From positions 1 through 45,825 of the forward strand of contig WQSB01000005.1 in assembly GCA_009788085.1 (NCBI GenBank): a stretch of 45,825 bases of DNA. Direction: 5' to 3'. Positions 3,892 to 44,398 of this stretch are shown in pieces. The position numbers and the translations under genes were made by a program. Under the pieces are notes generated by a model, which was not told the DNA's origin, made no database searches, and worked only from the letters and a program-made list of their open reading frames with translations. This DNA comes from Defluviitaleaceae bacterium. Its GTDB lineage: Bacteria; Bacillota; Clostridia; Lachnospirales; WQUN01. Positions within the stretch are counted from its first letter, which is position 1, and each line of letters starts with the position of its first letter.

Positions 3892-6465
3892 TTACAGCTT
3901 GAAATAAGCTACAAGCTGTTGGAGTAATTCTGCTTGCGAATTTAATTCCTGTGATGCCGCCGCCGTTTCCTCGGAAACAGCCGAATTGCTTTGTACTACT
4001 TGTGATATTTGTGAAAGCCCGGTACTTACTTGTGAGATTGCTTCCGCTTGCTCACTTGATGAAGCAGAAATACTGTTTATAATTTCTGATACTTCGGTGG
4101 CGTTTCTCACAATCATGTCTAATGATTCTGATGTAGCTTCCGCAATTTCTGACCCACTTTCAACACGGCTGTTTGAAGTTGCGATAAGCTCCGTGGTTTC
4201 GGTTGCGGATTCTTGACTACGCCCTGCAAGGCTGCGTACTTCTTCCGCAACCACGGCAAAGCCTTTACCGTGGTCACCTGCCCGCGCCGCTTCCACGGCG
4301 GCGTTAAGCGCGAGAAGATTTGTTTGGAACGCAATGTCTTGAATAGCTTTGATAATCTTGGAAATTTCGCCCGATGAATGCTTAATTTGTGACATTGCCA
4401 TTAGCATTTCCTTCATGGAAGTGTTGCCCTCTTTGGCGTTGGCTGTTGACTTATTGGAAATTTCGCTTGCTTCCTTTGCATTGTCGGCGTTTTGGCGGGT
4501 TTGTTGGTTTATAACGTCAATCGTGGCGTTAAGCTCTTCCACCGAGCTTGCCTGCTCCTGCGCGCCGTTTGCCAGTTCTTGCGCGCTGGTTGAAATTTGT
4601 TTCGCACCCGACAGCACTTGCTCGGATGCAACCGAAATTTCTGACATAGTTTTGTGGAGCGTTGTTGAAATATTGTTGAGTGAGCCTTTAATTGTACTGA
4701 AATTGCCAACATACTCGCGTGTGATTTTTTTGGTCAAATCTCCGCCGGAAATAGCCTCCAAACATTCTGCTATATCACGAATATAAGAAGCGATTTCCCC
4801 AATAGTCCCGACGAAGCTTGTCAGGATATGGTTGAATACGCCTTTGTAATTATTCACGTTTGAATCAAGACCCTTTGAGGTCATTCTCGTAGTAATAGTG
4901 GCTATATCAAAATTGCCCGCTTTCATTTCGTCCATTGCCACTTCTATAAGTTTAAGCGGCTTGTCAACGGCAATGGCTATGCTGTTAAGCCCTTCCATAA
5001 TCTCGCGCCAATTACCCCTGTATTCAGCTGCATCAATTTGAAATTGCAAGTCGCCTCTGTTGGCGGCGGCATCAATCATCGCACCAATTTCTGTGCTGAC
5101 CGAATTCAGGTTGTCGGTAAGGCTGTTTATTGTTTGCGGTATAACACTCCATTCGCCCGGCCAATCTTCAATCGTCAAACTTGACTTAAAGTCTCCGTCG
5201 CTTATGCTGTTAAGCACATCAGCCATGCTCATTATGTCCGTGGCGGTTTGCGAAAGTATTTTATTTACAAGACCAATTACTTCCTCAAACGAATTTTGGT
5301 ATTTAGCAGCGTTTATTGTATAGCGCATATTTCCAGTTACTAAATACTCCTGTTGTGCTTTGGTTAAATCCCCAACTATGTCTTTTATAACATCCACAAG
5401 ACCGCAAACATCATGGGTGAGTGTGCCGATTTCATCTTTGGGTAAGTTTGCCCTGTTTATATTAACATTGATATTTCCGCTTGACACATCTTTTACAGTT
5501 CTTGTCAGTATATTAAGGGGTTTTAATGACCTCGATATCAAGAAAAACATCAACCCGGCGGCGGCCAAAAGTCCTACAACTCCAAAAATAATCAAAGTAG
5601 TTTGCAATGCGGCAGTGGTTGCGTTTGTATGCTCGTTTGAAAACCCTGCAAAAAACATACCGATAACTGAGCCGTCCCAACCGTGAAGCGGGAAATAGTA
5701 CGCACTAAACGGCAATCCCTGTAAGGTTAATTCCGTTGTGTAGTGCTGGTTTCCATCTATAACCGCTTGCACAACTTCCGGTGGAGCTAAAACGCCTATA
5801 TCGCGCTGGCCGCTTTCGTTCAAAAGGGTAGTAGCCACGCGTTCATCACCTGCGAAAATAGTGATTTCCGCATTGAGTGCACCGGCAAAAGAATCAACAA
5901 ACGCATCGTTTGACATAACCATATTGGTTGATAAGGTTCCGATAATTACTCCTTCACTCCAAATAGGCGTTAAGTACGACAAAGACATTGGGATTGCACT
6001 CGTGGAAGAAAAGCTGGGTACACCCTCACCCGCAAAACCACGCATAAAAAGCGGCACGCCATATACATTATCACCATATTGTGCGGGAGCGTGGGAGCGA
6101 AGCATCACATCAAAATTTTGGTCAATTATTACAAATGTATCAATTCCTACATTAGCCTTAATCGAGTTTAGGTAAGCAAGGAGTGCCGTTCTATTCTCAG
6201 CACGGTTAATCCCGGCATTCCAATTTCGCAAATGCTCCAGTACAGAAGAATTTTCAGCAGTTGCCATACTTGCAATCCGATTGCGCTCTTGTATGCTTTC
6301 GATGTAAGAATTTGTCATTTGGACTGCTGTGTCAAGCCGTTGTTCTGTGATTTCATCTGCGAAGTTGTTTACGCTGACAGCAGCATAAATGATGATTACA
6401 GCCACCAGTAGGATTAAAACAGCGACACTCGGAATAATGATTTTGCTCTTTAAGCTGTTAAACAT
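3892..6465 (-). CDS. Methyl-accepting chemotaxis protein with extracytoplasmic Cache-like sensor and several HAMP-like repeats
   Basis: N-terminal TM, periplasmic sensor, second TM, HAMP, tandem HAMP-like segments, and conserved MCP hairpin ([44 protein letters not shown]). Confidence 0.95.
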
Positions 6466-14795: not shown

Positions 14796-14834
14796 ATCAG
14801 CCCCTTTGCGGAATTATACATCAAGCTAAAATCC

Positions 14835-14864
14835 TTGACAAATCCTTAGAAAAAGACGTAGAAT
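14835..14864 (+). promoter_or_regulatory. Putative sigma-A promoter of the pyrophosphatase gene
   Basis: TTGACA (14835-14840)-N18-TAGAAT (14859-14864), upstream of ATG 14909. Confidence 0.55.
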
Positions 14865-14908
14865 GCCGTTTGTGAAAAATTTCTCAAATGAGAGGATTGT
14901 GAGAGGGA

Positions 14909-17134: not shown

Positions 17135-17148
17135 AACAAGAACATCCT

Positions 17149-27596: not shown

Positions 27597-30500
27597 ATGA
27601 AAAAGATTAATCTGCAAGGGCTCAAGAAAAAGATAGCCCTGTACATGGCGTTAATAATGGTATTTGGTCTAATAGTGCCCTTTGCTATGCCGTCGCTGAC
27701 GGTTTTAGCGATTGACCCTGTTTGGGACAATGTAGGTGCGAGGGGCGGTGATTTGCAGGCTACCTTTCACGGAACATTATCGGCGGTGCCGGGGCAAGAT
27801 TTCCCACATCTGCATCGCGTAGCGGGGGGTAACCCTATAGTCGCTGAAGGCAGCGTAATGCTTAACTGGGCGGTTACTCCGGGAATTCCCGGCCAACAAG
27901 GCATGTATGTGCTGCGGTTTTTCGACTCCGCGGGAAGGCGGAACGAGCTTACAGTCAGGCATATACAAGGCTTGGTCGAGGGTGGCCCACCCACGGGCGG
28001 ACTGATGGTCAACTTTGACATATACATGCGCAGATATGTAACAGGTGGCGGTGTCCCCGTACCCACGGGATATCTCGGCCCCACATATTTTGCAGGCTAT
28101 ATAAACATTGGCGACCCAATGCGAGACCCAACTGAATCCGGACACTTTCACATCTATGTCCCGGTGCTTGACACATTTGAATCGGCTCGCGACTATTTCG
28201 GAAATGGTAGAAATCCGGATGAACCCAGCGGTCTTCTGCCCGGGCTTAACCGCATAAATGACCGTGTGCGTTTCGTTACGCCCGGCGCGTTATACAGTCC
28301 TTTGACATATCCGCACTTCACTTCGCACCATCCGAATTATCCCAACACCCCAAACAATCTGAGAGGCCCGCTGGAAGATCCCTATAGCCTAGACATGCTT
28401 ACCCCCAGCTTTAACATCGCACCCGGCGGTGGCTATTCCTTCAGTTACGGCGGCAGAACATTTCACTTTTTGTGGGTGCCGTCCACTGCTTCCAATGTGC
28501 CCTACCAATTCTATTTCTTCATTGAGGATATTTTAAGCCCCGGTTCAATATATGAGTTCCACTTAGAATATTACAGCGCTGCTCATGCTACCAGATATTT
28601 TACGGAAAATGTAGCCAATTACCGTGTTTCATCGCCTCCGGGCCATCCTACTCTTATAGTGCCGCCTGTTACAGGCAGGGGCGGAACCGTATATGTTTTC
28701 ACCGGTATTGACGCCGGTACGATTAACGCAATCCCCTTCGCGCAGAACTTAGTAGAGCGTCCCCCAGGCAGCGGATTGTGGGAACTGGTTGACCATACCA
28801 TAACAGCACGCCTGGCCGGTGAGTACGAAAGTGTCGCTCCCGCTCTGTTTAACCCTCCCGTCGGCGCGGAGTTTCCGGTTTACAACACGGCTAACCTAAA
28901 TATGACGATTAGGCCTCCTCAGATGCTCCCTTACCCGGACGATTCAACGCCGTTTGGCCCCGGCACCCCTAGCGTGGGGCTGGATATCCGCTTTAACCTG
29001 CCCACGTTGTTTGACGAGGAAACAGGGCAATTTGTCGAGCCTATACGCGGCCATTCCACCTTGAGGGATACCCTCCAAGTCCGCTTGATTGCGAATGTGG
29101 GTGACTCCGCAGGCGTCACCGAAAGTCCGGCCGAAATACCCACTACGGAAGACTTTATCGTAGAATTCCAGTTGGGTGATGTGGATAACTTCACCGAAAC
29201 GGATGACCCTCCCCCGGGAACAATCCTGGCAGAGGGCAATTATGACATTGAGCTTACCGACGTTTCTTTGCTTTCGCGGCGGGGTCAGACATACTTAAGC
29301 GAAGCCGACCGTGTGCGCGTCAGGGTAGACGGATTGCGCCCAAGCATGTCATACGATGAAGTATTCCTTTTCATGTGGACAGGTGCGGAGGATGTTGTTA
29401 CAGACTTCCTTGGTTGGCCAACGGCTCGTGTGGGTACGCATGAAAATCCGTTTTACACATTTTTGCGTTTTGTTTTTACAGAGCAGCTCGGACGGCCGTT
29501 TATCCGTTTAGAGCCCTTTAACTACAGCGTAGGCCGTGCACGTTCCGGCTGGTATCAAATGCACGGCACCCCGCCTGATGGCTTTGCACCGCAGTTGCTT
29601 CCAATCGGTGTGCAGCAGCACCTGTACTTCCCCCTTCCCAGAATGCTTGCAGGGGAAGACCGGGTTTTTTGGTTTACCAAGCATATCAACAACCCCATTG
29701 ACATGCCGTCGCCGGGATTCCGCTCTCAAAATGTTATCTGGACGCCGGACAGAACCCCGACAATAGGACTTCCCAATAATTTTCAAATCAACAATGTGCT
29801 GTCCCGGCCGGTGCAGGGTGATTTACACGCGGCACGACTGACCTTTAACGCATCCTGGGACATAGGCACAGTTGCGGACATTGTATACCTGCTTGCGGAA
29901 CCGCAGCCGCTTGGTTCTTCCCTGTATATCGAATACATGCTTGGGCTGTCCACCATGCCGGAATCCCAGCTTACAAACCCCTATCATGAAAGCTATATGC
30001 GTGTCGTTGTGGAAATCATGCAGGGCACCCAAACGCTAATAGAAATCCCCGCCACAACCCCCGGCGCGCCGCCCTTGGAATTCTACCTGCCGACAGTGCG
30101 TTACAGAGGCTATTTTTACGACAATGACAACCCGGATTTATTCGGGCGACCCGTTGTCCGTCACGGGGAATGGAGAGAGTCGGAATTGGGCTTCCGTATG
30201 GACCCAATCAGCGGCGAGTCGGTATTCTTTGCCTCCGTGGATATTAGAACGGACGCGCTGCGCCGGTATCGCCCCAACTGGCCGCCCTTCTTCCGGGATG
30301 ATTTTTGGTTCCCCGGACTGTACTATATGAATGTGCAGCTTAACAGATGGACCAGGACTGACCTCAACGACGATACATCCGCAACATTTGAGGCCAGCGA
30401 AGCCTGGAGCTTATTTGATTATATAGTTATAGAAGACACAACCGAGCTTGACCCCCCGCCCCCCTCACATCTTTCGGTAGTGGCCAGCACAGACCCGGAA

Positions 30501-33500
30501 GCTCCTCCCGAGCTTGTGGTTACCTTTGGTCTGCCCATGGGTGCGATAGGAACCTACCTTGGTACTTTGTACGAAATGGAAGTCCAGCTTTGGACGAACC
30601 TGTATATAGGCCAGTTTGAAGAGGCCATTATGAATACGTTTTTCAGCGGGGATGCCGGTAATACCCCGGGAATGCCCTTGAGCCCGCGATACCGTCCCTC
30701 CACTGCGGGCGGCGGCAGAGGGGCCACTATAGACGTGCCGTTTTCTACTCCGGGGCTTTTCACCTTTAATACCGCTCCCGGATATAACCGTTTTGAGCTT
30801 GACCTAAGTGCGTATCAGAATATACTGCGCGGCATAGGCGCGGACCGCGCCGCCGTTGTGCGTATTACAGACATCCCCCTTATATGGACGGGTGCCACAC
30901 GGGAGGCTACAACAGGCTCCGCGCTTACAATAAGCCGGGGTGAAACAGTAAACCACTTCCCTGCGGCAAACGACCCCGCGCCGCCGCCTACCCCGAACGG
31001 AACTGTCTTTATAGGCGATGAAGCTATCCGCGACTCATTTTATATAACCCGCGAACGGATAAACCAAGGCGGAGACCATATCGTAACCTTCTACTTAACC
31101 GGAGTGGAAGAGAACAGAGCTTATTTCTTATTTGCGGACTTGGCCATACAGCAGTTTATCCCGCTGCTGGATGATGTGGGTGAAGTTGTGCCGAATGAAT
31201 GGCTGGTTCGATATGAAAGCCCCGTGGTTTCCGACCTGACGGGTATTGTAACGGATACTACAGTGGGTACGCCGCAAATTCCCGGCCCGGGTGAGGTTCA
31301 TCCTCCCGCGCCGTCAAATCTGCATGTGTATGAGTTTGACCAAATGTCCGCGTCGGTACGCTGGGACCCCATGTTCCTCACTCCGGAGGAAGCGGACTAC
31401 AACGAATATTACGAACCCCGAGTTAGAATAGAGTGGGAAATAATCAGAATCCAAGACGGGCCTAGGCTTACCGACGCCCAAATGCGAGACCGCAACCCCA
31501 ACTTCTCGGAATTCCTCAGCTCTCTTGAAAACGTGCCCTTGCACTTGCGCAAGGGTTGGATAACAAGCGGCGGGGCTCTTACGGTTTTGCCGGCTGGCGA
31601 AACTATATATGAGCCAAACGACGGTATCTTCTATGGCTACAGGCCCAATATCGTAGAGCTGTCCGACATGACTCTTATGCCCAACACCCTGTACTTCTTC
31701 TATGTAAGAACCGTGCGCATCGAAAGAGTGTGGGATTTCCAGCTTGGTGACTATGTGGAAATCCGCACAACCTCTACCTGGGTTGAGGAATCGGTTACGA
31801 CTACTCCCGTTCAGCCTCCGATAAATCTCAGGCAGGAGGACGGCTCGGTACGTTACGGCTTCGACGGCACTACCATGGCCTTTGTAAGCTGGGAGCATGA
31901 ACACATGGTTCTTATTCGCGAGGCCATGCGGATAGACCCCACACGGTTTGTATTTCAGTATCAAATCAGATACGGTGAGGGTGAATGGGGCGAAATCTTT
32001 GACGTGCCGGCACGGCTGATGATTAATGACGCCAACCTGGACCCGTTTAATATTAACCGTATACGCTACATGGTTACGGGGCTGACCCACAGCTCGGTTT
32101 ATCAAATGCGTGTCAGGCTGGTGGACCAAACCTCCGAGGATCCGTCCCGCTGGTCACATTCTGTTTGGTCTAATGTCATAACAATTCTTACCGAGCATGA
32201 CCCGGATGATGATTACGGCGAGGACGATTGGCTTGAATTCCTACGCCGCCAGCTGGAAGAGCTTTTGCGCCGGCCTTTCTGGTTTGCGCAGAACACCCCA
32301 ACCAGCACAATCATGGTGTATCGTCCCGCTGAAATGTTTGCCGGTCTCCTACTTGGCACACCGGGCACGGCCATTCCGCTTCACAATACCGATGTTAATG
32401 ATATTACATTCTATTTGCCCGCATCTATAATCGAAGACGCCAACGCGGCACGAAGGGGCTTTTCCACAAGATACAGCGACTTGGATATTCTGCTCGCGCC
32501 CTTCTTTATAAACCGCGACCATAATCAAGCAATTATGGATATGGTAAGGCTGCTGGATGCCCGTGGTTCTGATATCAGCGATTACTTTGTACGCCTCGAC
32601 ATCAACCGTGTGCCCATGACGGAAATCCACGGCGTACCGGGTATCGGGCGTCAAACGGATATCCAAATGACACTTGTGGCAACCAACAGAAATATCCGCA
32701 ATCTGCGCAGCTGGGATTTGCATGTGCTTGACCGGGCCGCGCGTATAGTTGACGATGTTGCGGACGACCCCGTTATGCGCCAAAACATGAGAAATCTTTT
32801 GCAGGCCGGAACCTCAAACGAGGACATGGTTGCTTTCGTAGACGATGTGGTTGACAGAACCTCCAACCGGATAACACAAATGGTGGGAGGTTATATGACC
32901 ACCCGTCAAAACGGCATTTTAACTACCACGGAAATTCCCGTTACGGACTTTGACGCGCCCATGCATGTGCTGCCGAATAGCGCTGATGCTAATATGTCCG
33001 TAAACGGCTTTATGCTGCGCGTTGGGCAATGGGTAGCCCAGCCTCTGTTGGATACCCTCGACGGGCCCGCCATTACCTCCCGCACACCGGGAACCTTTGC
33101 TTTCACGGGACGTGTGGTGGATATCCCTGGGATTTCCGACGTGGCTCAGGGTGGGGAAATTACCTCTATAGTAGCCCGATTCGGCTTGGAGAATTATTTC
33201 GGACTCAGCATAGATTTGCAGCAAAACGCCAACCGCCACATGGTTGTCGGCTCGATTGCCCGCATGGCCAACGCACCCCTTGGGGCAGACCCCATGACCT
33301 GGGCCGCCGCAAATCTTAATGTGCAAATGTCCAGCCGCAATGCCACAGCTCTTATACCGCGCCAAGAGGCCATTGCAATGGTCATGGCCTTGTACGAATT
33401 GAGAACCAATACCCGCGTTGACGGAATTATGATTCGCAACTTCCAGAATACCGCCGGTATGACCCTTGACCCGCGATATGCACAGGCAGTGCGCGCCGCT

Positions 33501-33608
33501 TTTGAGGTCGGCCTTGTTTCCGACAGCGAAATAGACCCGGCCGGCCCGATTACCATCGGCGAATTCTTGGATATGGTAGCTGCTTTTAACAATCTTTTGC
33601 CACTTTAA
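27597..33608 (+). CDS. Giant secreted multidomain (FN3-like) surface protein, lysine-depleted
   Basis: Signal peptide MKKINLQGLKKKIALYMALIMVFGLIVPFAMPSLTVLA; FN3-like beta domains (e.g. PAPSNLHVYEFDQMSASVRWDPM, VYQMRVRLVDQTSEDPSRWSHSVWSNVITI); degenerate SLH-like C-terminus. Confidence 0.8.
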   Translation: MKKINLQGLKKKIALYMALIMVFGLIVPFAMPSLTVLAIDPVWDNVGARGGDLQATFHGTLSAVPGQDFPHLHRVAGGNPIVAEGSVMLNWAVTPGIPGQQGMYVLRFFDSAGRRNELTVRHIQGLVEGGPPTGGLMVNFDIYMRRYVTGGGVPVPTGYLGPTYFAGYINIGDPMRDPTESGHFHIYVPVLDTFESARDYFGNGRNPDEPSGLLPGLNRINDRVRFVTPGALYSPLTYPHFTSHHPNYPNTPNNLRGPLEDPYSLDMLTPSFNIAPGGGYSFSYGGRTFHFLWVPSTASNVPYQFYFFIEDILSPGSIYEFHLEYYSAAHATRYFTENVANYRVSSPPGHPTLIVPPVTGRGGTVYVFTGIDAGTINAIPFAQNLVERPPGSGLWELVDHTITARLAGEYESVAPALFNPPVGAEFPVYNTANLNMTIRPPQMLPYPDDSTPFGPGTPSVGLDIRFNLPTLFDEETGQFVEPIRGHSTLRDTLQVRLIANVGDSAGVTESPAEIPTTEDFIVEFQLGDVDNFTETDDPPPGTILAEGNYDIELTDVSLLSRRGQTYLSEADRVRVRVDGLRPSMSYDEVFLFMWTGAEDVVTDFLGWPTARVGTHENPFYTFLRFVFTEQLGRPFIRLEPFNYSVGRARSGWYQMHGTPPDGFAPQLLPIGVQQHLYFPLPRMLAGEDRVFWFTKHINNPIDMPSPGFRSQNVIWTPDRTPTIGLPNNFQINNVLSRPVQGDLHAARLTFNASWDIGTVADIVYLLAEPQPLGSSLYIEYMLGLSTMPESQLTNPYHESYMRVVVEIMQGTQTLIEIPATTPGAPPLEFYLPTVRYRGYFYDNDNPDLFGRPVVRHGEWRESELGFRMDPISGESVFFASVDIRTDALRRYRPNWPPFFRDDFWFPGLYYMNVQLNRWTRTDLNDDTSATFEASEAWSLFDYIVIEDTTELDPPPPSHLSVVASTDPEAPPELVVTFGLPMGAIGTYLGTLYEMEVQLWTNLYIGQFEEAIMNTFFSGDAGNTPGMPLSPRYRPSTAGGGRGATIDVPFSTPGLFTFNTAPGYNRFELDLSAYQNILRGIGADRAAVVRITDIPLIWTGATREATTGSALTISRGETVNHFPAANDPAPPPTPNGTVFIGDEAIRDSFYITRERINQGGDHIVTFYLTGVEENRAYFLFADLAIQQFIPLLDDVGEVVPNEWLVRYESPVVSDLTGIVTDTTVGTPQIPGPGEVHPPAPSNLHVYEFDQMSASVRWDPMFLTPEEADYNEYYEPRVRIEWEIIRIQDGPRLTDAQMRDRNPNFSEFLSSLENVPLHLRKGWITSGGALTVLPAGETIYEPNDGIFYGYRPNIVELSDMTLMPNTLYFFYVRTVRIERVWDFQLGDYVEIRTTSTWVEESVTTTPVQPPINLRQEDGSVRYGFDGTTMAFVSWEHEHMVLIREAMRIDPTRFVFQYQIRYGEGEWGEIFDVPARLMINDANLDPFNINRIRYMVTGLTHSSVYQMRVRLVDQTSEDPSRWSHSVWSNVITILTEHDPDDDYGEDDWLEFLRRQLEELLRRPFWFAQNTPTSTIMVYRPAEMFAGLLLGTPGTAIPLHNTDVNDITFYLPASIIEDANAARRGFSTRYSDLDILLAPFFINRDHNQAIMDMVRLLDARGSDISDYFVRLDINRVPMTEIHGVPGIGRQTDIQMTLVATNRNIRNLRSWDLHVLDRAARIVDDVADDPVMRQNMRNLLQAGTSNEDMVAFVDDVVDRTSNRITQMVGGYMTTRQNGILTTTEIPVTDFDAPMHVLPNSADANMSVNGFMLRVGQWVAQPLLDTLDGPAITSRTPGTFAFTGRVVDIPGISDVAQGGEITSIVARFGLENYFGLSIDLQQNANRHMVVGSIARMANAPLGADPMTWAAANLNVQMSSRNATALIPRQEAIAMVMALYELRTNTRVDGIMIRNFQNTAGMTLDPRYAQAVRAAFEVGLVSDSEIDPAGPITIGEFLDMVAAFNNLLPL

Positions 33609-33623
33609 GAAAGGAGCCTCCTT

Positions 33624-36600
33624 ATGAAACAAGCGAAAAAAATAATCGCGTTTTGGCTTTCTATAATAATGCTGATGGGAATGATGCCGGCTGTGGTGTT
33701 TGCCGCGGAGGATGACCCGCCCAATGCCCTTCCGCCACGAAACGAGCGGCCGTGGGGGCAGCGTCCCGTGTCCGACCCTACATTGATGTTTGGCGGCTCA
33801 TCGGGGCCGGTTCAATCGCGCACGTATAACTTTTCAATAAGCTGGTCACGTCCGCCACTGTCCACTGTGACTGTGCCCGATGGCGGCCTTTCCTACGCAG
33901 AGATGAACCTCGTCGCAGGGGATTCTTATGGCTCTTGGACATTATTCCCCACCCGGTATGATGTCCGTTTCCGCAACGCAACCATAGGCGAAGCTCCCGG
34001 TGCTTCGATACCTGTGAGGCAGATTCCCACCAATGACCAACAGCGCCGCCCTCAGATGTGGGACTTGAGGGAATCCACAGGCAATATGTCTCTTAACCTG
34101 CGGCATAGCAGCTTGTATGAAATTAATATAGAACCTATCAGGCACAACCCAATGCTTACTATTTTGCCGCCGCCTGCCGTTCCCCCCGGCAACCGCCACA
34201 TCGGGACTGAACGCGCACCCGTAGACAACTCCCCCGGTGGAGGGCCTCCCGGCCGCGATATGATTTTCCTTACAGACATTGCCCTAACTGGCGAAGGCAG
34301 CGGGAACACCATTACAATCACATGGGAAGACCCAGCTTGGGGCGGCGTAAGCGTCTTCCCGTACTGGTTTATTTCCTATGCACGTTATGAAGCCGGTCAG
34401 CAGATTATGGGGCAGAACGGCCGTACCTTTCCCGTATCCTCAGACGCGGGCCCAAATGAAATCCAACGAAACCCCGACGGCACCTTAACCTTTACAATTA
34501 TAGATCCGGCTCTTCGCCCCATAGGCACTTATGCCGTAAGCGTAGAGCCTATGCTGGGCCCCAACCCGGCCAACGCCGCTCACCGTATACGCACAAGGCC
34601 GGAGCCGGGACAGCCTGCCCCGCCCCCGCAAAGGGAATTTACACATGACGGCAGGCTGTTTAACCTGGCGTTCAGTCCTCCGGCTTTAGTTGAATACAGA
34701 ACCGAAGTTATGATGGTGCCCGCGCTTAACATAGACCAAGTGGGCGCGGACTTTATCCGGCTGTGGTGGTCGCATTTGGGCGGCCTAATCGGCGGACATC
34801 CGCCCCCGCCATTTTATGTAAGGCATGTTGTTGTGGAAGAATGGCCCCCCGGCCCGCCGGAAGGGCCTCCTCCCTCCACCGAAGATGTCAGCATTAGAAT
34901 CGGCGAGCTTGCCACAATAGGCGGCCCCGGTTTCCTAACGGGCATTAACGAATGGTTTATCGGCCCGGGTATTCCCCGTATGCGAAGGGGCTTTGCCCTT
35001 GCGCTACACCTTTCTAACGGTCAGGTTTTGCGTACCAATATAGTCGTATATGACCCGCTCTTGGTGGAATTTAGCCCTTACAGGCCGGAAATTGTAGAAA
35101 TTACCCATGAGGGCGACGGTGTGCTTTCCTTGGAATGGCTGGCATTTGCCCGCTATCCCGCCGTCCCCGAGGAAAACGAGCTTGCCGACCCGGAGTTTGG
35201 CGGACGCTTTGTTGACACTGCGCTGGAATATGAGATTTTTATTTCGGATTGCTGGGAAACCCTTACGCTCCTGACAACGCCGCTGATAGTCCGTGACCCC
35301 GTGCGGCTGTTGACCTCCAGACGGCTAAACCCCGTCCAGCCTGAGCCGGCAACTCCCCAGCATGACCCAACTTGGCGGCTGTATCCATTTGACTATATCA
35401 GGTATTTTCAGACTATTACCCAATACGGGATTGAAAGCTTGCCGATACAGGGCAACCGCGTGTACTTTGTGCGTATGCGCGCCAGACGTGTACCCGGCGA
35501 CCAAACCTCCAGCTGGGCGTACGGCAGCGTTTATGTGCCGCCCCTTGAAGGCCTTCAAATCAGGCCCGAAATGATTTCCGCGCCGCCGGTAGAGGTTGTC
35601 CACGCGAATATAACCGACACATCCATCCCCTTGAGATGGGATATCCGTTACTTGGAAATCATGCAACCCAACCCTCAAGCGGATTGGGCTCCCAACCGTG
35701 ATGTATGGCATACGGTAGTGGGTGTTGACCGCAGCACTCCCCCAAGATTAATTTTTGGGCGTTCCGCCGCGCATATTAACCATGTAGTGGGTGATAGCGC
35801 GGTAGCCCCCGGCATGGACCCGCGTCATGGGTTTTTAAACGATATAATCAATTATCCCCCGGGCGTCTCGACGAACCTGCGAAGCAGGCTTTTGGGATTG
35901 GGCCCGGCCCCGCTTAATGTGAATATGAATGTCCCCAGAAGCGTTGGTGATTTCCTCACCGAGGTGCGCCAGGAGGGTGGACCCCTTAGGGATTTCCTGG
36001 TGCTACAGCACGGGTATTCGCCCTTAAGCTTTATTGCGTCCCCACCGGCCTTGCGCATTCAGGATATGACGGGCTACAGCTATATGGTTCATGTTGTCCC
36101 CTTTGCCGATTTGATGATGACCCCTCTAAGGACGGCAGACGACACCCCCTTTGAGGCTTATCGCTATCTTATTATCAATAACCCGACCCTGTGGCACTCC
36201 ATCGGCTCGCCCGAGCCTGTTAATGGTGTGATTAATCACACGGTAGAGGGGCTTGAGCCAAATGTTCCTTATGTAATTTTCATACGGCCCTATGTCACCA
36301 TAGGCGGGAATGTAATTGCCGCTTGGTATCCGACCTTTGTAATCGGAACTACCGTGGAAGACGCCTATCGTCCCATCCCAGACCCTACAACACCCGTGCT
36401 GATTGAGGTGCCTCGGTACACCACCCGCAACAGAGTGGCCGTTCGTTGGCGCGTGCAGGCGGACATGGTTTATGAAATAAGAATTTCCCATCTATTTACG
36501 GATTTCCGCCCCACCGGCTTCCATCCCGGCGGCACTGTAATCCCCATAACATGGGAGCATATTCAGGCCGCGCGGGACGGGGAAACCGTGGAGCTGGAAG

Positions 36601-38525
36601 ACCCCCGGGCCTTGCTGGATATTCAATACGTAAACGAAGTGCCGTATTTCCATTTAAGGATTTCCGAACGCTTCCCCTTTACGGTCTATTATCTCTGGGC
36701 GTATGCCTTTGGGGTAGATGATAGCGGTACTATTGCTACCGACCCCTCAGAGCCCTCTAACCTGGTGGATATCCGAACACTGGATATCGAGCCGCCGCTG
36801 CCGCCAAGAAGCCTGGCTCGTGCCCCGCAGAACCTGTTAAATATGTACAATAGATACAATGAAGCGGAATACCGCTCCGATGAGCCCCATGCCCTTAACA
36901 TTTCCTTCATGCGCATTTTTGCGGATTTAATGGATGATATGGGGCAGTCTACCCCCCGCGCCGAGGACGGCACGGCAACAGGCGGCACAGCCAGGCCGCT
37001 TAACCTGCCCAATGTTCCGGACACGGAGGCTTATGCCGCGCTGCATATCATACGCTTCGAGGAGCTTATCGCAAATCGCAGATACTATGTGCGCGCCCGC
37101 ACTATTTTGACGGTGCGGCGTTCCGAGGAGGATGTCTACAGCTACGAGGTTCAAATTGCGGACAACGAGGATTTTCTTGATGCCATAACCTTTGTTATAC
37201 CAACATTGCCGGCTATGGACCCCATAAATACCCGCAGGGCGTATTCTATATGGGTGAGCATTGAAGTGGACACAGGTCCAGACGACGGTGAATACGACGC
37301 CGTGCACAGGCCCGACCAGTTCCCCCTGCCGGAGCGCGACTTTGAGATTACCTACGACCCGGCAACCCAGACCCTTCAATGGCGTTTCCGTACAAATCAA
37401 ACCGGCGCGGACGGCAGACCCGACCAAAATGTTGACCAGCGTTTTATTTCCCGGCTGGTAAGCGAGCGGACTTTTGTTTACACCATGGATTTATCGCAAT
37501 ATCATATCAACCGGGCTGCACCCATTTCCAACAGGAATGTTATTATTCCGCTTTCAATTATACGGGCGTTTAACGAGCGCGGTATTACCCTGGAAATAAA
37601 TGCAGGTGACTTAGTTTACAGGATTCCGCCGGGGGCCTTTGATACCTCGGAAACACGAAGCTTGCAACCGGGCATCGGCAGCTACTTCCATATCACAATG
37701 AACACAAACCCGTCGGGAATGCCCGCGCTGGCAGCCAATACCAGCCATGCCATTCCGCCGCAGCGGTTTGGTGTTCAGGCGCAGACGCCACAGCGTACCG
37801 TTAATCTCACAACCTTTGCCCACCCGGTGGATATAATCCTTCCCATGGATAACCACATTACGCCAATCGGCGGTACGGCGGCTCTGTTCCAAAGCGGCGC
37901 GGGTGTTCAGGGCTGGCAGGACATGAACGGCAGCTTCTCCTTCGCGGAAAATAACCTGCGCGCCCAAGTCAGCCGGCCGGGAACCTTCTCCGGCGTAAAC
38001 CGTCACGCCCCGCCCACCGTTGACCCCGGCGCGGGTGGCACAGGGCAGGGAAATGTTGCCGCCGCACCCACAAATCCGGCCCTTGCCCGTGTGACTTCAC
38101 GCCTTACCATCACAGACCTGCATGTATTCGACGCTCATCAGACCGTCACCACAGGCATGTTTAACAATATCATTCACGCCGTATCCCACCGCAACACCAC
38201 CGCTACAATGGGCGGAAATCTTACCTCCGCACAGATTCAGGCTTTGCAGCGCAGTAATCTTCTCGCGCCCGGTAATCTCAATCGCGAAACCGCCATTGAT
38301 ATCCTCGTGCGCTTGTATGGCCTCCAGACCAATCAGCGGCTCACCCCCATGACTCCCGAGGCCTCCATTCCCGGAATCACCGCGGCCTCGCCGGAGTTTA
38401 GGCGCAATATCCGCATCGCCGCCGATATCGGATTCATTTCCGGCTCGCTTAACCCCCAAGGCAACCTCACCATGGGCGATTTAATGCATATGCTGGATAT
38501 CTTAATGACAGACGCAGGCTGGTAA
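33624..38525 (+). CDS. Second giant secreted FN3-like surface protein, lysine-free after the signal peptide
   Basis: Signal peptide MKQAKKIIAFWLSIIMLMGMMPAVVFA; FN3-like repeats; C-terminal module homologous to the upstream protein; RBS aaaggag, 15-bp intergenic gap. Confidence 0.8.
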   Translation: MKQAKKIIAFWLSIIMLMGMMPAVVFAAEDDPPNALPPRNERPWGQRPVSDPTLMFGGSSGPVQSRTYNFSISWSRPPLSTVTVPDGGLSYAEMNLVAGDSYGSWTLFPTRYDVRFRNATIGEAPGASIPVRQIPTNDQQRRPQMWDLRESTGNMSLNLRHSSLYEINIEPIRHNPMLTILPPPAVPPGNRHIGTERAPVDNSPGGGPPGRDMIFLTDIALTGEGSGNTITITWEDPAWGGVSVFPYWFISYARYEAGQQIMGQNGRTFPVSSDAGPNEIQRNPDGTLTFTIIDPALRPIGTYAVSVEPMLGPNPANAAHRIRTRPEPGQPAPPPQREFTHDGRLFNLAFSPPALVEYRTEVMMVPALNIDQVGADFIRLWWSHLGGLIGGHPPPPFYVRHVVVEEWPPGPPEGPPPSTEDVSIRIGELATIGGPGFLTGINEWFIGPGIPRMRRGFALALHLSNGQVLRTNIVVYDPLLVEFSPYRPEIVEITHEGDGVLSLEWLAFARYPAVPEENELADPEFGGRFVDTALEYEIFISDCWETLTLLTTPLIVRDPVRLLTSRRLNPVQPEPATPQHDPTWRLYPFDYIRYFQTITQYGIESLPIQGNRVYFVRMRARRVPGDQTSSWAYGSVYVPPLEGLQIRPEMISAPPVEVVHANITDTSIPLRWDIRYLEIMQPNPQADWAPNRDVWHTVVGVDRSTPPRLIFGRSAAHINHVVGDSAVAPGMDPRHGFLNDIINYPPGVSTNLRSRLLGLGPAPLNVNMNVPRSVGDFLTEVRQEGGPLRDFLVLQHGYSPLSFIASPPALRIQDMTGYSYMVHVVPFADLMMTPLRTADDTPFEAYRYLIINNPTLWHSIGSPEPVNGVINHTVEGLEPNVPYVIFIRPYVTIGGNVIAAWYPTFVIGTTVEDAYRPIPDPTTPVLIEVPRYTTRNRVAVRWRVQADMVYEIRISHLFTDFRPTGFHPGGTVIPITWEHIQAARDGETVELEDPRALLDIQYVNEVPYFHLRISERFPFTVYYLWAYAFGVDDSGTIATDPSEPSNLVDIRTLDIEPPLPPRSLARAPQNLLNMYNRYNEAEYRSDEPHALNISFMRIFADLMDDMGQSTPRAEDGTATGGTARPLNLPNVPDTEAYAALHIIRFEELIANRRYYVRARTILTVRRSEEDVYSYEVQIADNEDFLDAITFVIPTLPAMDPINTRRAYSIWVSIEVDTGPDDGEYDAVHRPDQFPLPERDFEITYDPATQTLQWRFRTNQTGADGRPDQNVDQRFISRLVSERTFVYTMDLSQYHINRAAPISNRNVIIPLSIIRAFNERGITLEINAGDLVYRIPPGAFDTSETRSLQPGIGSYFHITMNTNPSGMPALAANTSHAIPPQRFGVQAQTPQRTVNLTTFAHPVDIILPMDNHITPIGGTAALFQSGAGVQGWQDMNGSFSFAENNLRAQVSRPGTFSGVNRHAPPTVDPGAGGTGQGNVAAAPTNPALARVTSRLTITDLHVFDAHQTVTTGMFNNIIHAVSHRNTTATMGGNLTSAQIQALQRSNLLAPGNLNRETAIDILVRLYGLQTNQRLTPMTPEASIPGITAASPEFRRNIRIAADIGFISGSLNPQGNLTMGDLMHMLDILMTDAGW

Positions 38526-38973: not shown

Positions 38974-39513
38974 ATGGGAAAGCACACTATTTTTGTAATT
39001 GTGACATTGACGTTGGTCTGGTGCGTTCTGATGGAGGGCGTCTCTTGGCAGATAGTGGCCACAGGCATGTTCATGGGTATGCTTAGTATGCATCTGATGG
39101 GGAAATTTTTTAACTTCGAAGAGGTTAAAAATGTTGATTTTTACAAGCTTCTGACGTATCCGCTGTGGCTTATAGGGCGCATTTACCTGGATGCGTTTTT
39201 TTTGCTTAGGCTTATTTTTTCCGACGCAAAATGGGGCGTCGTTGAAACGAATCTGGAGCTAAAAAGCGAATTTTTAAAGATACTGCTGGCGGACTCTATT
39301 ACGTTGACGCCGGGTTCGGTTTTCCTTGAGCGCAGAAAAAAGAACATTTATTTATTATGCATCGGAAAACGCGATAAGCAGGGATATCCCGCATCGGTTG
39401 AGGGCCTGCGCGCGATTGAGAAACAGCTGATTAAATCCGAAATTTTGCCGGAGCCGGAAATTCCGCTGGCGGGACCCCAACATGACTGTCCAACAGCCAT
39501 GGAAGGAGAATAG
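38974..39513 (+). CDS. mrpE: Na+/H+ antiporter subunit E
   Basis: MnhE-like: two N-terminal TM, then LLADSITLTPGSVFLERRKKNIYLLCIG. Confidence 0.88.
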   Translation: MGKHTIFVIVTLTLVWCVLMEGVSWQIVATGMFMGMLSMHLMGKFFNFEEVKNVDFYKLLTYPLWLIGRIYLDAFFLLRLIFSDAKWGVVETNLELKSEFLKILLADSITLTPGSVFLERRKKNIYLLCIGKRDKQGYPASVEGLRAIEKQLIKSEILPEPEIPLAGPQHDCPTAMEGE

Positions 39514-39516
39514 CTC

Positions 39517-39789
39517 ATGTACATTGTGCTTGCGATAATGCTGGGGCTGCTTGTGCCCTATGGGATACGTGTGGCGATTGGCCCAAGCGTGTGGGACAGG
39601 CTTTTGGGGATGAATTTGATTGCGTGTAAAATAATAATAATTATTATTATTTTCGCGTCGGTGAGTGAAATGACTTTTTTGATGGATTTTGCCATTTTAT
39701 ACGCCGTGTCAGGGTTTATCGGGACTATTTTTATCGCGCTTTTTCTTAGCGAGCGGGACAGGCGCAAGGGCCAGGAGGACAAGGAATAG
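39517..39789 (+). CDS. mrpF: Na+/H+ antiporter subunit F
   Basis: MrpF-like: RVAIGPSVWDRLLGMNLIACKIIIIIIIFA, FLMDFAILYAVSGFIGTIFIALF. Confidence 0.88.
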   Translation: MYIVLAIMLGLLVPYGIRVAIGPSVWDRLLGMNLIACKIIIIIIIFASVSEMTFLMDFAILYAVSGFIGTIFIALFLSERDRRKGQEDKE

Positions 39790-40112
39790 TGAGCGTTCAG
39801 GAGATTGTCAGCTTTATTATTATGGGAATCGGCATAGCGTTTATGCTTGTTGGTATAATTGGCATGTTCCAGCCGAAAAAGGATTTTTATTATAGATTGC
39901 TTGTGGCCTGTAAAATTGATACCATCGGGCTTTTGACCATTGGAATCGGCTTGGCTATCCGGCATGGTTTCAGCTTTTTTACCGGAAAAATTATACTTAT
40001 TATTATTATCATAATGGTGCTTAACCCGCTGGTTGCGCATATAATTGCCCAGGCGGCTTATCGAAGCGGCTATGTTTCCATTTGCAAGGATGGCGATAGC
40101 TTTGACCACTGA
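39789..40112 (+). CDS. mrpG: Na+/H+ antiporter subunit G
   Basis: MnhG-like small 3-TM protein (GIAFMLVGIIGMFQPKKDFYYRLLVACKIDTIGLLTIGIGLAIRHG) in mrpF-G-B order. Confidence 0.82.
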   Translation: MSVQEIVSFIIMGIGIAFMLVGIIGMFQPKKDFYYRLLVACKIDTIGLLTIGIGLAIRHGFSFFTGKIILIIIIIMVLNPLVAHIIAQAAYRSGYVSICKDGDSFDH

Positions 40113-41097
40113 AATTTTACTGGTATTTTGGGTTGTCAACGCGATTTGGATTGTCTTTGCAAAAAAGACATACCGGGTCATGATTTTTTTTGGCGTTTTT
40201 TCCCTGATTACCTCGGTGATATATTTGTTTTTGGGCGCGCCGGATGTGGCTATGGCCGAAGCGGGTATTTCCGCCTTTGCCACGATATTTTTTATCGTGT
40301 GCATCGAGAAGTATTACAGCCGTGGTAGCGGCTTAAAAGCAGAAATGGCGTCCGCTGCTAAGCCAAGAAATTATTTTAAACTGGTTGCCGCCTTTGCGTT
40401 TGTGGCGATGCTTTGCGGGCTGTTTATTTTTTTCGTACCCACAACCACGGAATACGCCTATACCGAGCTTCGTGATTTGTATTTGTTCCAGTTCATGAGG
40501 GATGTGGGCGGGCGAAATGCCGTCACAGCAATTTATTTGGGATATCGCGTGTATGACACGCTTTTTGAGGCGTTGCTGCTGGTAACGGCTGTTGTGGCCG
40601 TGATTCACCTGTCTTGGTTTGACCGTACAATAGTCGCCGACGGGCGGCACAGCGAAGTCGAACGCTCGCGTATGACCAAGTTTGCCATGCGTATCGTTTG
40701 CCCGATTATTTTGCTTTTTGGTATGTATCTTGTTATGAACGGACATATCTCCGCTGGGGGAGGCTTTCTCGGGGGCTTGGCTTTTGCGCTGTTTTTGGTG
40801 TGCCGGTTTATGGTGCTTGGGGTTTACGATTTACCCATCGAAAAAGCCATGAAGCTTGAAGAGCTTGTGTTTATCAATATTATTATCCTACCGATTTTCG
40901 CCATTTTCACAGGGTTTATTTATTTCTACGGCTATGCTACAGAAATGTTTCAAAATATTTATCTTATTGCTATGAATTTTCTTGTAGGATTAAAGGTTGC
41001 CTTTGGATTTTTCGTGCTGTTTTACAGATACATTGCCATCGAACGCTTACCTGATAAAGAAGAAGTAGTCGAGGCTTTTGACGACGGGGAGGATTGA
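40090..41097 (+). CDS. mrpB: DUF4040 (MrpA C-terminal type) fused to MnhB domain
   Basis: N-terminal half VFSLITSVIYLFLGAPDVAMAEAGISAFATIFFIV (DUF4040); C-terminal half LFGMYLVMNGHISAGGGFLGGLAFALFLVCRFM (MnhB). Probable ATG 40090. Confidence 0.85.
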   Translation: MAIALTTEILLVFWVVNAIWIVFAKKTYRVMIFFGVFSLITSVIYLFLGAPDVAMAEAGISAFATIFFIVCIEKYYSRGSGLKAEMASAAKPRNYFKLVAAFAFVAMLCGLFIFFVPTTTEYAYTELRDLYLFQFMRDVGGRNAVTAIYLGYRVYDTLFEALLLVTAVVAVIHLSWFDRTIVADGRHSEVERSRMTKFAMRIVCPIILLFGMYLVMNGHISAGGGFLGGLAFALFLVCRFMVLGVYDLPIEKAMKLEELVFINIIILPIFAIFTGFIYFYGYATEMFQNIYLIAMNFLVGLKVAFGFFVLFYRYIAIERLPDKEEVVEAFDDGED

Positions 41098-41486
41098 GTA
41101 TGACTGTGGGTGACATTCACGTTCTTGAGATTTTTCCGATACTTGTGTTTTTTATCAGTTTTTTTGGCCTGATTATCAGCCGGAATATCGTCAAGGCGAT
41201 TGTGCTTATTATGCTGATGCAAACATCCGTTATTTTGTTTTGGCTGGGACTTGGGGCGCGGCTTGGGAATATCCCGCCTATTTTTCAGGATGCCACAGAA
41301 GTCTACGACCCCAATACCATTGCCGACCCGCTTCCACAGGCCTTGATGCTTACGGCAATTATTATCGGGATTGCCGTCACGGCAATTAATATTACGCTGC
41401 TTAACGCGCTTTTTAGAAAATACCAGACCGTCGATTGGCAACCCATGCAGGATTTGGCCACCGTTGACGAACGACCGGAGAGCTGA
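41094..41486 (+). CDS. mrpC: Na+/H+ antiporter subunit C (NuoK-like)
   Basis: NuoK/MnhC-like 3-TM: NIVKAIVLIMLMQTSVILFWLG, DPLPQALMLTAIIIGIAVTAINITLLNALF. Confidence 0.92.
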   Translation: MSMTVGDIHVLEIFPILVFFISFFGLIISRNIVKAIVLIMLMQTSVILFWLGLGARLGNIPPIFQDATEVYDPNTIADPLPQALMLTAIIIGIAVTAINITLLNALFRKYQTVDWQPMQDLATVDERPES

Positions 41487-41488
41487 AC

Positions 41489-43099
41489 ATGCCACCTCAG
41501 ATGCTTACTTTTTTTGTAATTGTGCCGGTGCTTATAGCCGTGTTTTTATATGTGTTTTTTACGCTTAAAATTGCTCGGGTTATTGCCATCGCGGTTCAGG
41601 CCGCGTTTATGGTTCCGGCGGCGTGGCTGCTTTTTGCCACGCAGGAATCCGAAATTGCCGTCACCGTCGGCGACTATGAAGGGTTTTTGGGTATCATTTT
41701 GCGTGCGGATTTGCTGGCCGCCGTTTTTGTATGCCTGACGGTTTTTATCTTCCTTGTAGTGGGAATTTATACCGTGCAAACACCCTACGACCGCACGAAG
41801 CGACTGTACCTTTTCCTGATTTTTTTGCTGGAGGGCGCGTTGATTGGCCTTTTCCTGACTCGGGACTTTTTTAATATTTTTGTGCTGGTGGAGGTAAGCA
41901 CAGTTGTTGTTACAATTTTGCTTATGTACGACCGGGAGCGGCGGAATTTGTTTGCCGGTATGACCTTTTTGATGGTGAATATCATTGTGATGCAGTTGTA
42001 TCTCTTTGGACTGGGGTATATCTACATGCTTACTGGCGTCATGGACATGGAGGCCGCCTCCGCAGTGCTTTACACCATGGATGACCGTTCGCTGGCGTTA
42101 CCCTACGCACTTATTATGACCAGTATCGCGTCCAAGTGCTCTCTTTTGCCCATGCTTACTTGGCTGCCCAAGGTAAATTCCCTGACAGGCTCGCGATTTA
42201 CTATTGCCGCGATTATGTCGGGGTTGCATATTAAAGCCGGGGTTTATCTTTTTATCCGCTTCCAGGATGTTTTTGGGGGGATGGGTACGGATTTCTTTCT
42301 TGTAATCGGAATAATCACCGCCGTGGCAGGGGTTATTATGGCCCTTTCCCAGACGGATGTCCGGCTGCTGCTGGCTTATTCTACAATTGCTCAAGTTGGG
42401 CTGATTATAACCGGACTCAGCTTGGGTGATGGGTATTCCAGGGTGGGGTCGCTGTTTCATATTGTAAACCATTCGCTGTTTAAGGTGGCGTTGTTCCTTT
42501 GCGCCAGCCAGATTACCTACCTTTATCATACGAAGGATATCCGCAAAATCCGCGGGGCTTTGCGCCAGACGCCCCTTATTGCCGCCGCAAATATAATGGC
42601 TATCCTTGGAATCATCGGCGCACCGTTGTTTAACGGAAGCATTTCGAAGTATTTTTTAATGAGCGGCGCAACTGGCGCAACAGAGTGGATTATTATTCTA
42701 ATTAACTTGGGGACTATTTTGGCGTTTGTTAAATACGCGGCGATTTTCTTCGGCAAGCCCCTCGGCAAGGTTCGTACCGAAGGCGGCGACGAACCGGATT
42801 TCAACAGACGCGCAGTTGTGCTGGGTTTGGGAATTATCTGCCTCGCGCTGGGAATCGGCGGCGCGCAGGCCATGGACTTTTTATTCGATGCCCCCGTCAG
42901 CTTGAGTTTTTGGAGCTACCTCGAAAAGGTTGGGATTTTCGCCGCCAGCGTGGCAATTGGCATTTTGATTTACAGGTACGCCATATCCAAGCGGGAGTTT
43001 CTGCCCAAGCTTAACGGCCTCAGCCTCAGCTTCCAGCAGATTTGCGTTTCCATCGGGGCTTTCTTTGCAGTGCTGGTGATTTATATCGGAGTGTTTTAA
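41489..43099 (+). CDS. mrpD: Na+/H+ antiporter subunit D (NuoN/MrpD-like proton-conducting transporter)
   Basis: SKCSLLPMLTWLPKVNSLTGSRFTIAAIMSGLHIKAGVYLFIRF, DVRLLLAYSTIAQVGLIITGLSL, LFHIVNHSLFKVALFL. Confidence 0.93.
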   Translation: MPPQMLTFFVIVPVLIAVFLYVFFTLKIARVIAIAVQAAFMVPAAWLLFATQESEIAVTVGDYEGFLGIILRADLLAAVFVCLTVFIFLVVGIYTVQTPYDRTKRLYLFLIFLLEGALIGLFLTRDFFNIFVLVEVSTVVVTILLMYDRERRNLFAGMTFLMVNIIVMQLYLFGLGYIYMLTGVMDMEAASAVLYTMDDRSLALPYALIMTSIASKCSLLPMLTWLPKVNSLTGSRFTIAAIMSGLHIKAGVYLFIRFQDVFGGMGTDFFLVIGIITAVAGVIMALSQTDVRLLLAYSTIAQVGLIITGLSLGDGYSRVGSLFHIVNHSLFKVALFLCASQITYLYHTKDIRKIRGALRQTPLIAAANIMAILGIIGAPLFNGSISKYFLMSGATGATEWIIILINLGTILAFVKYAAIFFGKPLGKVRTEGGDEPDFNRRAVVLGLGIICLALGIGGAQAMDFLFDAPVSLSFWSYLEKVGIFAASVAIGILIYRYAISKREFLPKLNGLSLSFQQICVSIGAFFAVLVIYIGVF

Positions 43100-43243
43100 A
43101 TGATTAGAGCCGCCAATTTATCCGATTTCCTCGCATCGCTGAAATCAATGTCCTTGCGCGTCCGCATAGCACAAAATTTACAATATGTACATATTTTATT
43201 CAATTGTATCGTGTATACTGTAGTCGTAAAAGGAGGAATTTTT

Positions 43244-44398
43244 ATGCGGAAAATATGGTTGTTTTTGATAGCGATATGCCTTGGCGGTGTGACCTTGGGG
43301 CTGGGGCTGGGTGCGGGATATGCGTTTATGCGGCATTTTACGCCGGAGCCGGAGGTTGTTACTATTGAGGTGGACAGGACCGCCAGCGTTACGACGGTTC
43401 ATGTGAACCCGCTTGCGATTCCCATTGACCCGAATGAGCCCAGCTTCGTTGACGTTATCCCTCTGGTGAAGGATTCCGTTGTGAGCATTAACGTGACGGC
43501 GGCAATGGGCCGAGGCTTCGGGCGGGGGGAAGCTCCCGGCGCGGGCTCGGGTTTCATTTTCGCCGAGGACGGGGACTATGTGTTCATCGCAACAAATAAT
43601 CACGTAATTGAAAATGCCACGTCGGTTACGATTTCCTTGGACGATAACGAAAATGTCCCGGCCGTGCCCATCGGCTGGCACAGGGATTCCGACTTGGCGG
43701 TTCTGGCGGTGTCAAAAGCGGCATTGGAAGCCAAGGGTGTTCCGTTTACTGTTGCAGTCTTTGGAGATTCGGATATAATGCGTATGGGCGACCCCGTCGT
43801 AGCCATCGGAAACGCCATGGGAGAAGGCCAAACCGTTACGCGGGGTATAATATCCGCGCTTAATCTCAATATCAATATTGACGACCCACACACGCGCTAT
43901 CGTCTGAACCTGGACGTTATGCAAACCGACGCCGCAGTAAACCGCGGCAACAGCGGCGGCCCGCTGGTAAACCGGCACGGTGAGGTTATCGGCATTGTTA
44001 CGGCCAAGCTTTTGGGCGCGGACATCGAGGGCATGGGGTATGCTTTACCCATCAATAACGTAGTCCCCGTTTTGCTGGAGCTGAAGGAAAACGGCTCGGC
44101 ACGCCAGCCCTTTATTGGCATCAGGCATGAGGAAATGAGCGAGGCCCGCGCCGCCTCCTTTAACCTGCCAGCCCCGGGAATTTTAATCCGTGCAGTTTTT
44201 CCGGACAGTCCCGCCGAAGCCGCCGGTTTACAAGTGAACGATTTAATCGTATCTTTTGGGGGTATCCGAATCGCCGGTTTCGACGATTTTGTCGCGGCAT
44301 TGGCTCTCAGCCGTCCGGGTAACGAAGTCGTTTTCGGGGTATACCGGGGACGGGAACGCTTGGACATCACGGTTACACTTGGCAGCATAATAAGATAA
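43244..44398 (+). CDS. HtrA/DegP-like serine protease with PDZ domain
   Basis: N-terminal TM; catalytic triad motifs ATNNHVIENA, HRDSDLAVLAV, NRGNSGGPLVN; C-terminal PDZ. RBS aaaggagg before ATG 43244. Confidence 0.95.
   Translation: MRKIWLFLIAICLGGVTLGLGLGAGYAFMRHFTPEPEVVTIEVDRTASVTTVHVNPLAIPIDPNEPSFVDVIPLVKDSVVSINVTAAMGRGFGRGEAPGAGSGFIFAEDGDYVFIATNNHVIENATSVTISLDDNENVPAVPIGWHRDSDLAVLAVSKAALEAKGVPFTVAVFGDSDIMRMGDPVVAIGNAMGEGQTVTRGIISALNLNINIDDPHTRYRLNLDVMQTDAAVNRGNSGGPLVNRHGEVIGIVTAKLLGADIEGMGYALPINNVVPVLLELKENGSARQPFIGIRHEEMSEARAASFNLPAPGILIRAVFPDSPAEAAGLQVNDLIVSFGGIRIAGFDDFVAALALSRPGNEVVFGVYRGRERLDITVTLGSIIR

Follow-up and report, generated by a model that had tools for sequence, protein, structure and literature searches.

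Why do two adjacent genes for giant secreted proteins encode almost no lysine, and is this a trait of the pair or of the place where its products work? We followed up this question on a window of 45,825 nucleotides (the whole stretch of DNA analysed, contig WQSB01000005.1) from a Defluviitaleaceae bacterium (assembly GCA_009788085.1), which is a spore-forming clostridium close to the termite-gut 'Defluviitaleaceae'.

Two giant secreted proteins at one locus

A sequence-only reading of this DNA had reported two lysines and no cysteine after the signal peptide of the first giant, and no lysine and one cysteine in the second. Our residue counts agree. In the 2003-aa protein, lysines at positions 2, 3, 10, 11 and 12 belong to the signal peptide and only those at 695 and 1319 lie beyond it, with no cysteine at all, while in the 1633-aa protein lysine is confined to positions 2, 5 and 6 and the lone cysteine is residue 543. 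Arginine amounts to 134 residues (6.7%) and 123 residues (7.5%), respectively. Both N-termini show a basic n-region, a hydrophobic stretch and an Ala-x-Ala-like site, i.e. a signal peptide as judged from sequence and a heuristic. At the cytosolic frequency of 6.3%, about 124 and 101 lysines would be expected, and the deficits correspond to a Poisson log10 P of about -50 and -44.

Could such a deficit stem from a bias in codons or GC, or have come about by chance, given that both proteins are large and repetitive? Lysine codons are A-rich and the window has about 51% GC (53-55% for the giants), which would favour such a bias. However, asparagine is normal (5.1%) although its AAY codons also start with AA, and thus the shortage of lysine in the giants is not a codon effect. 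The housekeeping neighbours SerS (6.0% lysine) and CysS (6.5%) are ordinary, as had been claimed.

Sequence profiles revealed little about the nature of the pair: the sole match of Pfam and NCBIfam on both giants was fn3, below the curated cut-off, the Pfam SLH profile matched neither protein, and the profile of the C-terminal region, run against PDB sequences, matched nothing significantly. The last 165 aa of the first giant were modelled by AF2 with a pLDDT of 91, and in a structure search with this domain the top 13 PDB matches were all SLH structures, the best being 3pyw (E 1.6e-4), with 6bt4 and SpaA-SLH among the other leading ones. The predicted anchor shares its fold with Bacillus anthracis Sap (3pyw, 6bt4) and SpaA-SLH, but it is only 11-16% identical to these domains and lies outside the Pfam SLH profile. 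The model of the last 841 aa gave FN3 matches in the PDB. The first giant is thus predicted to be wall-anchored via an SLH fold, and for this giant at least the models point to FN3 domains. The C-terminal domain of the second giant is homologous to that of the first (E 1e-5, 29% over 87 aa), and by this homology it would be SLH-anchored as well. The two are best seen as paired, putative S-layer-type or wall-matrix proteins. The earlier suggestion of a surface coat is therefore a fair one, as both giants are secreted and the larger bears the predicted wall anchor.

Two further observations concern the locus itself. A part of the window that spans the end of the second giant gene is identical over 2120 bp to the end of another contig (C7). 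This duplication, internal in the present contig (C5) and terminal in C7, is probably an assembly overlap or a strain variant with its breakpoint within the second giant gene; a paralogue was ruled out by the 100% identity over 2120 bp and the location at a contig end. A promoter scan around the giant pair gave matches no more frequent than in shuffled sequence.

Table 1. Coordinates of the features discussed in the text, in positions of the window
Feature	Position	Strand	Remarks
Methyl-accepting chemotaxis protein (MCP)	3892..6465	-	Lysine contrast between Cache outer part and cytosolic part
2003-aa secreted giant	27597..33608	+	Signal peptide aa 1 to ~38; long region with predicted FN3-type domains, then predicted C-terminal SLH-fold anchor; 2 Lys in mature part; from ORF and residue counts
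SLH-like wall-anchoring domain (predicted)	33111..33608	+	Last 165 aa of first giant; three helical repeats
1633-aa secreted giant	33624..38525	+	Signal peptide aa 1 to ~27; 0 mature Lys
Exact match to end of contig C7	37903-40022
Mrp-type multisubunit monovalent cation/H+ antiporter operon	38974..43099	+	Directly downstream of giant pair
MrpE	38974-39513	+	NCBIfam subunit E match, MNHE Pfam match
Probable MrpF	39517-39789	+	Size and gene order only
Partly palindromic repeat	39628-39653		Inside probable MrpF gene
Probable MrpG	39789-40112	+	Size and gene order only
Partly palindromic repeat	39987-40009		Inside probable MrpG gene
MrpA-tail/B	40045-41097	+	NCBIfam subunit B match
Probable MrpC	41094-41486	+	Size and gene order only
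MrpD	41489-43099	+	NCBIfam subunit D match
HtrA/DegP-type exported serine protease	43100..44398	+	Mature part 5 K, 21 R in 356 aa

Lysine on the two sides of the membrane

Is the lack of lysine peculiar to this pair? In a sample of 746 kb (26% of the genome), with signal peptides called heuristically, 392 cytosolic ORFs contained 6.32% lysine, whereas the mature parts of 55 signal-peptide ORFs had a median of 0.55%, with arginine at 6.26% (pooled); overall, mature exported protein in the sample holds about 0.3-1% lysine versus 6.3% in the cytosol. Among predicted exported proteins of at least 250 aa, 32 of 41 stay below 1%, and several of the nine lysine-richer exceptions look like false positives of the heuristic. 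The 44 predicted exported proteins with less than 1.2% lysine average 0.32%, a mean that describes the depleted set only, as this subset was picked on its lysine content. A solute-binding lipoprotein, amidases, phosphatases, a cohesin/dockerin protein and both penicillin-binding proteins (PBPs) are on the depleted list, SpoIIIAH and HtrA contain about 1-1.5%, and sizeable ORFs of other SLH proteins, found by the Pfam SLH profile, contain 0-1.5%, mostly below 1%. Flagellin and FliD, which are exported without Sec, are depleted too, and the C-terminal FliD ORF has no lysine in 653 residues. Contrary to the earlier proposal, the lack of lysine is thus not confined to the pair: nearly all sampled extracytoplasmic protein is lysine-poor, including low-copy enzymes and a sensor domain. 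The finding named beforehand as one that would speak against the proposal, an equal lysine poverty of all secreted proteins, is essentially what we obtained. The accompanying statement that the effect is not one of genome-wide composition is borne out by the cytosolic ORFs.

Cysteine is also near absent from exported protein (0.22%). Asn-Gly pairs, sought as a sign of alkaline damage, showed no avoidance, and the signal thus concerns lysine and not general base lability. As a separate observation, the cohesin/dockerin protein (positions 14764-17253 of another sampled stretch of this genome), which also carries InlB-type repeats, contains 2 lysines in about 800 aa and constitutes a cellulosome-like component in this lineage.

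The change in lysine content can be followed within a single protein. In the MCP, the outer part (Cache domain, 251 residues) has 1 lysine and 10 arginines, and the cytosolic part (548 residues) 27 lysines and 16 arginines. Together with the normal cytosolic proteins of the same genome, this within-protein contrast leads us to reject GC or codon bias, and we see next to no chance that composition or accident explains the deficit. For the signal peptidase LepB, copies were gathered by a profile search plus alignment. The catalytic lysine of box D is kept in 24 of 24 copies from lysine-poor genomes (defined below), while the other lysines number 0.83 on average versus 8.5 in lysine-normal relatives, and arginine makes up 8.6% versus 6.1%. 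Only three outer lysines remain in the PBP2-like protein, of which STFK and KTG account for two, while PBP1 keeps six, among which are those of SQLK, KTG and the transglycosylase motif QQFIKN. The lysines remaining outside in LepB and the PBPs are thus mostly catalytic. A loop statistic over multi-TM proteins, which used a crude topology heuristic and included spurious ORFs, gave no clear contrast (K/(K+R) of 0.44 inside vs 0.47 outside). As this ORF set and its topology calls are poor, we base the boundary on the MCP, LepB, the PBPs and the secreted proteins; in these, the boundary of lysine depletion is the membrane.

Recurrence among relatives and association with host habitat

Is the depletion shared by related bacteria? 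Orthologues of the giant protein were found in 47 of 61 relatives, and their lysine content is bimodal; metagenome-assembled genomes (MAGs) such as these are incomplete. We recovered 44 named genomes with an orthologue; presence/absence tests were run over 45. All 20 orthologues from higher-termite hindgut MAGs, assigned by the sample codes of PMC7024585 (hosts Labiotermes, Embiratermes, Neocapritermes, Termes, Cornitermes and Microcerotermes), contain 0-1.01% lysine. The 22 others, from lower termites (documented as hosts for two codes, Gx485 and Nm470), mammals and undocumented hosts, contain 2.61-11.22%. Two Pmx449 bins of undocumented host have 0.05 and 0.19%, a depletion that predicts an alkaline-gut host. 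The lysine content of the orthologues is independent of GC, with lysine-free loci at a GC of 0.34-0.60 and lysine-rich ones at 0.57, again at odds with a GC bias. Of the aligned lysine positions, 27% have become arginine, and Q, A, E, T and D share the remainder.

The lysine-poor MAGs come mostly from the P1 compartment and three from P3 samples. A previous study reported that 79% of its Defluviitaleaceae MAGs stem from P1, which it termed highly alkaline (PMC7024585); the P1 of soil feeders has been described likewise (PMC10018900), and for the P1 of Termitidae a pH above 9 was given (PMC10992782).

RpoB, a cytosolic control, contains 5.0-7.3% lysine in all genomes checked. An RpoB tree (a quick search, with some long branches) requires no fewer than five changes of the trait, each forced by well-supported branches, and the host matches the trait in five of five independent pairs (p = 0.0625, the best attainable). 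The lysine-free state thus appears to have arisen about five times in termite-gut bacteria. This independent recurrence supports the strong selection against lysine that had been postulated from the sequence alone. In LepB from 90 genomes drawn class-wide, none fell below 2.6% lysine, and the lysine-poor state is thus rare. The nearest named relatives of the present genome on the RpoB tree are P1 bins from Labiotermes, Embiratermes and Neocapritermes. The Pmx449 bins cluster with higher-termite P1 bins.

Mrp antiporters are a classical route of pH homeostasis in alkaliphiles, and an Mrp operon follows the giant pair (Table 1). MrpE is present in 18 of 23 lysine-poor versus 0 of 22 lysine-normal genomes (p = 2.4e-8, a value that ignores phylogeny), and about 4.6 of five independent pairs agree with the trait. 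Na+/H+ antiport in general has been treated in an alkaline context (PMC8153356). Self-comparison of the window also revealed the 23-26-bp repeats of Table 1 within this operon.

The same genomes bear on a metabolic explanation, in which frequent lysine auxotrophs strip the residue from exports because exported protein is lost and unrecyclable. LysA (TIGR01048) was not found in 13 of 23 lysine-poor genomes, the present one included, versus 3 of 22 lysine-normal ones (p = 0.0045, uncorrected); judging from this gene, many alkaline-gut members may be lysine auxotrophs and metabolism may contribute to the depletion. However, depletion is almost as strong in the 10 lysine-poor genomes that have LysA as in those that lack it (0.35% vs 0.17%, p = 0.16), LepB, the PBPs, SpoIIIAH and the outer MCP domain are depleted although they are low-copy and not shed, and cytosolic proteins such as RpoB hold 5-7% lysine. 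As the main cause, lysine economy therefore seems to us very unlikely.

Alkaline pH as the probable cause, and competing explanations

We consider it likely that the giants are S-layer-type proteins whose loss of lysine is part of a wider exclusion of the residue from the outer compartment, selected by the strongly alkaline gut (P1) of higher termites. At a pH of about 10-12 the lysine side chain (pKa ~10.5) would become an uncharged, nucleophilic amine and could no longer hold its salt bridges, while arginine (pKa ~13.8) would stay charged. Selection at a pH of about 10 or more would then purge extracytoplasmic lysine, with arginine as a partial substitute. Lysines in catalysis (box D of LepB, SxxK and KTG of the PBPs) would be spared, as a neutral amine is useful there; an unprotonated general-base lysine would suit survival at high pH. 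In the cytosol, where Mrp and other cation/H+ antiporters would keep the pH closer to neutrality, the ordinary lysine content could be retained. In a simple charge model, a shift from pH 7 to 11 costs lysine-poor orthologues 3% of their positive charge versus 33% for lysine-normal ones. We infer that pH is the selective agent, acting through loss of charge rather than amine reactivity. Against this reading stands that the HK97 capsids of prophages in lysine-poor genomes contain 3.4-7% lysine, so that not all lumen-exposed proteins are depleted. Virions may spend too little time in the lumen, or the constraint may concern the cell envelope and not everything in the lumen. The lack of Asn-Gly avoidance, the flat loop statistic, the three lysine-poor MAGs from P3 and the more frequent absence of LysA also count against the pH reading.

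If the liability of lysine were instead its nucleophilicity, quinones, humics and sugars in guts full of humus and wood would covalently attack free amines, the more so at high pH, and exported protein would be built to avoid such chemistry, as the sequence-only reading had supposed. The host association and the membrane boundary are equally expected here, and cysteine, the other strong nucleophile, is scarce outside too. This last argument is weakened by the lysine-normal orthologues, which are cysteine-poor as well; anaerobes avoid cysteine in exported protein anyway. Moreover, the normal lysine content of the capsids speaks against a lumen agent that hits every exposed amine, the co-occurrence with MrpE indicates pH itself, and the retained catalytic lysines are the most nucleophilic ones. 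Based on the hindgut origin (mostly P1) of the lysine-poor relatives, the Mrp antiporter, the kept arginine and the kept catalytic-base lysines, alkaline pH fits better than amine chemistry, which we regard as unlikely. Of the earlier proposal the selection thus stands, and alkaline pH is the better-supported agent. A bolder version, which strikes us as doubtful, would be a 'nineteen-amino-acid' outer compartment, reached several times independently in termite hindguts and with lysine only in catalysis, that is driven by an amine-directed hazard of the alkaline, polyphenol-rich lumen and not by charge alone.

Escape from a lysine-specific protease, be it the host's, a neighbour's or the cell's own, also part of the earlier reading, would explain why arginine is kept and lysine lost, as expected for a Lys-C-type enzyme, and the MAGs do come from a digestive tract. 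Yet the gingipain family C25, the only lysine-specific family searched, was found in just 1 of 45 genomes and lends the idea no support, lysines that are buried or in tightly folded domains would not be selected against, and the capsids keep theirs. We hold this escape to be highly improbable. The single C25 match lies in a lysine-poor genome (contig C100, 1522-1914).

How does the depletion compare with known systems? Lower lysine and higher arginine are established for single alkaliphile enzymes, such as the M-protease of Bacillus sp. KSM-K16 (PMC8153356) and the octaheme nitrite reductases of Thioalkalivibrio (PMC5433712), and the reason stated is that high pH strips lysine of its positive charge (PMC8153356, PMC5433712). 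The present proteins share this shift relative to lysine-normal homologues (0-1% vs 2.6-11% lysine in the orthologues). However, the shift in those enzymes is partial and concerns single proteins, whereas here it is near-complete, extends to nearly every extracytoplasmic protein in the sample, leaves catalytic lysines in place and evolved repeatedly within one order. SlpA of the alkaliphilic Bacillus pseudofirmus OF4, an SLH protein needed at high pH, is reported to have few lysines, few arginines and a low pI (PMC5938343). Like SlpA and other OF4 SLH proteins, the present giants are predicted SLH-anchored surface proteins with few lysines; unlike SlpA, they are arginine-rich (6.7-7.5%), contain predicted FN3 domains (in the first at least) and come from unrelated Clostridia. 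Long selected lysine-free stretches are also shared with the lysine deserts of pupylating Actinobacteria and the ubiquitin system, for which avoidance of lysine tagging for degradation was proposed (PMC10665810, PMC10169902). Unlike the pupylation-linked deserts, which concern cytosolic proteins open to lysine tagging, the depletion here is restricted to outward-facing protein (cytosolic 6.3%, exported 0.3-1%, RpoB normal, contrast within the MCP).

The open-access full texts searched yielded no description of an exoproteome that lacks lysine throughout, and no precedent for a canonical amino acid being purged almost completely, and repeatedly, from a whole compartment of the cell. Such bacteria offer a natural experiment on what lysine is indispensable for, namely catalysis, as well as exoenzymes that are adapted to alkali and poor in amines. 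From sequence alone, lysine content could mark bacteria that inhabit alkaline compartments of the gut, and membrane topology might be readable from composition. The finding also bears on the entry of symbionts into the alkaline hindgut of higher termites.

The prophage of the present genome (contig C9, 1-20000) shows a graded picture, with 1.9-3.3% lysine in probable tail-end ORFs, 4.7% in the capsid and 8-13% in small early-type ORFs, a hint that its distal tail proteins are partly adapted.
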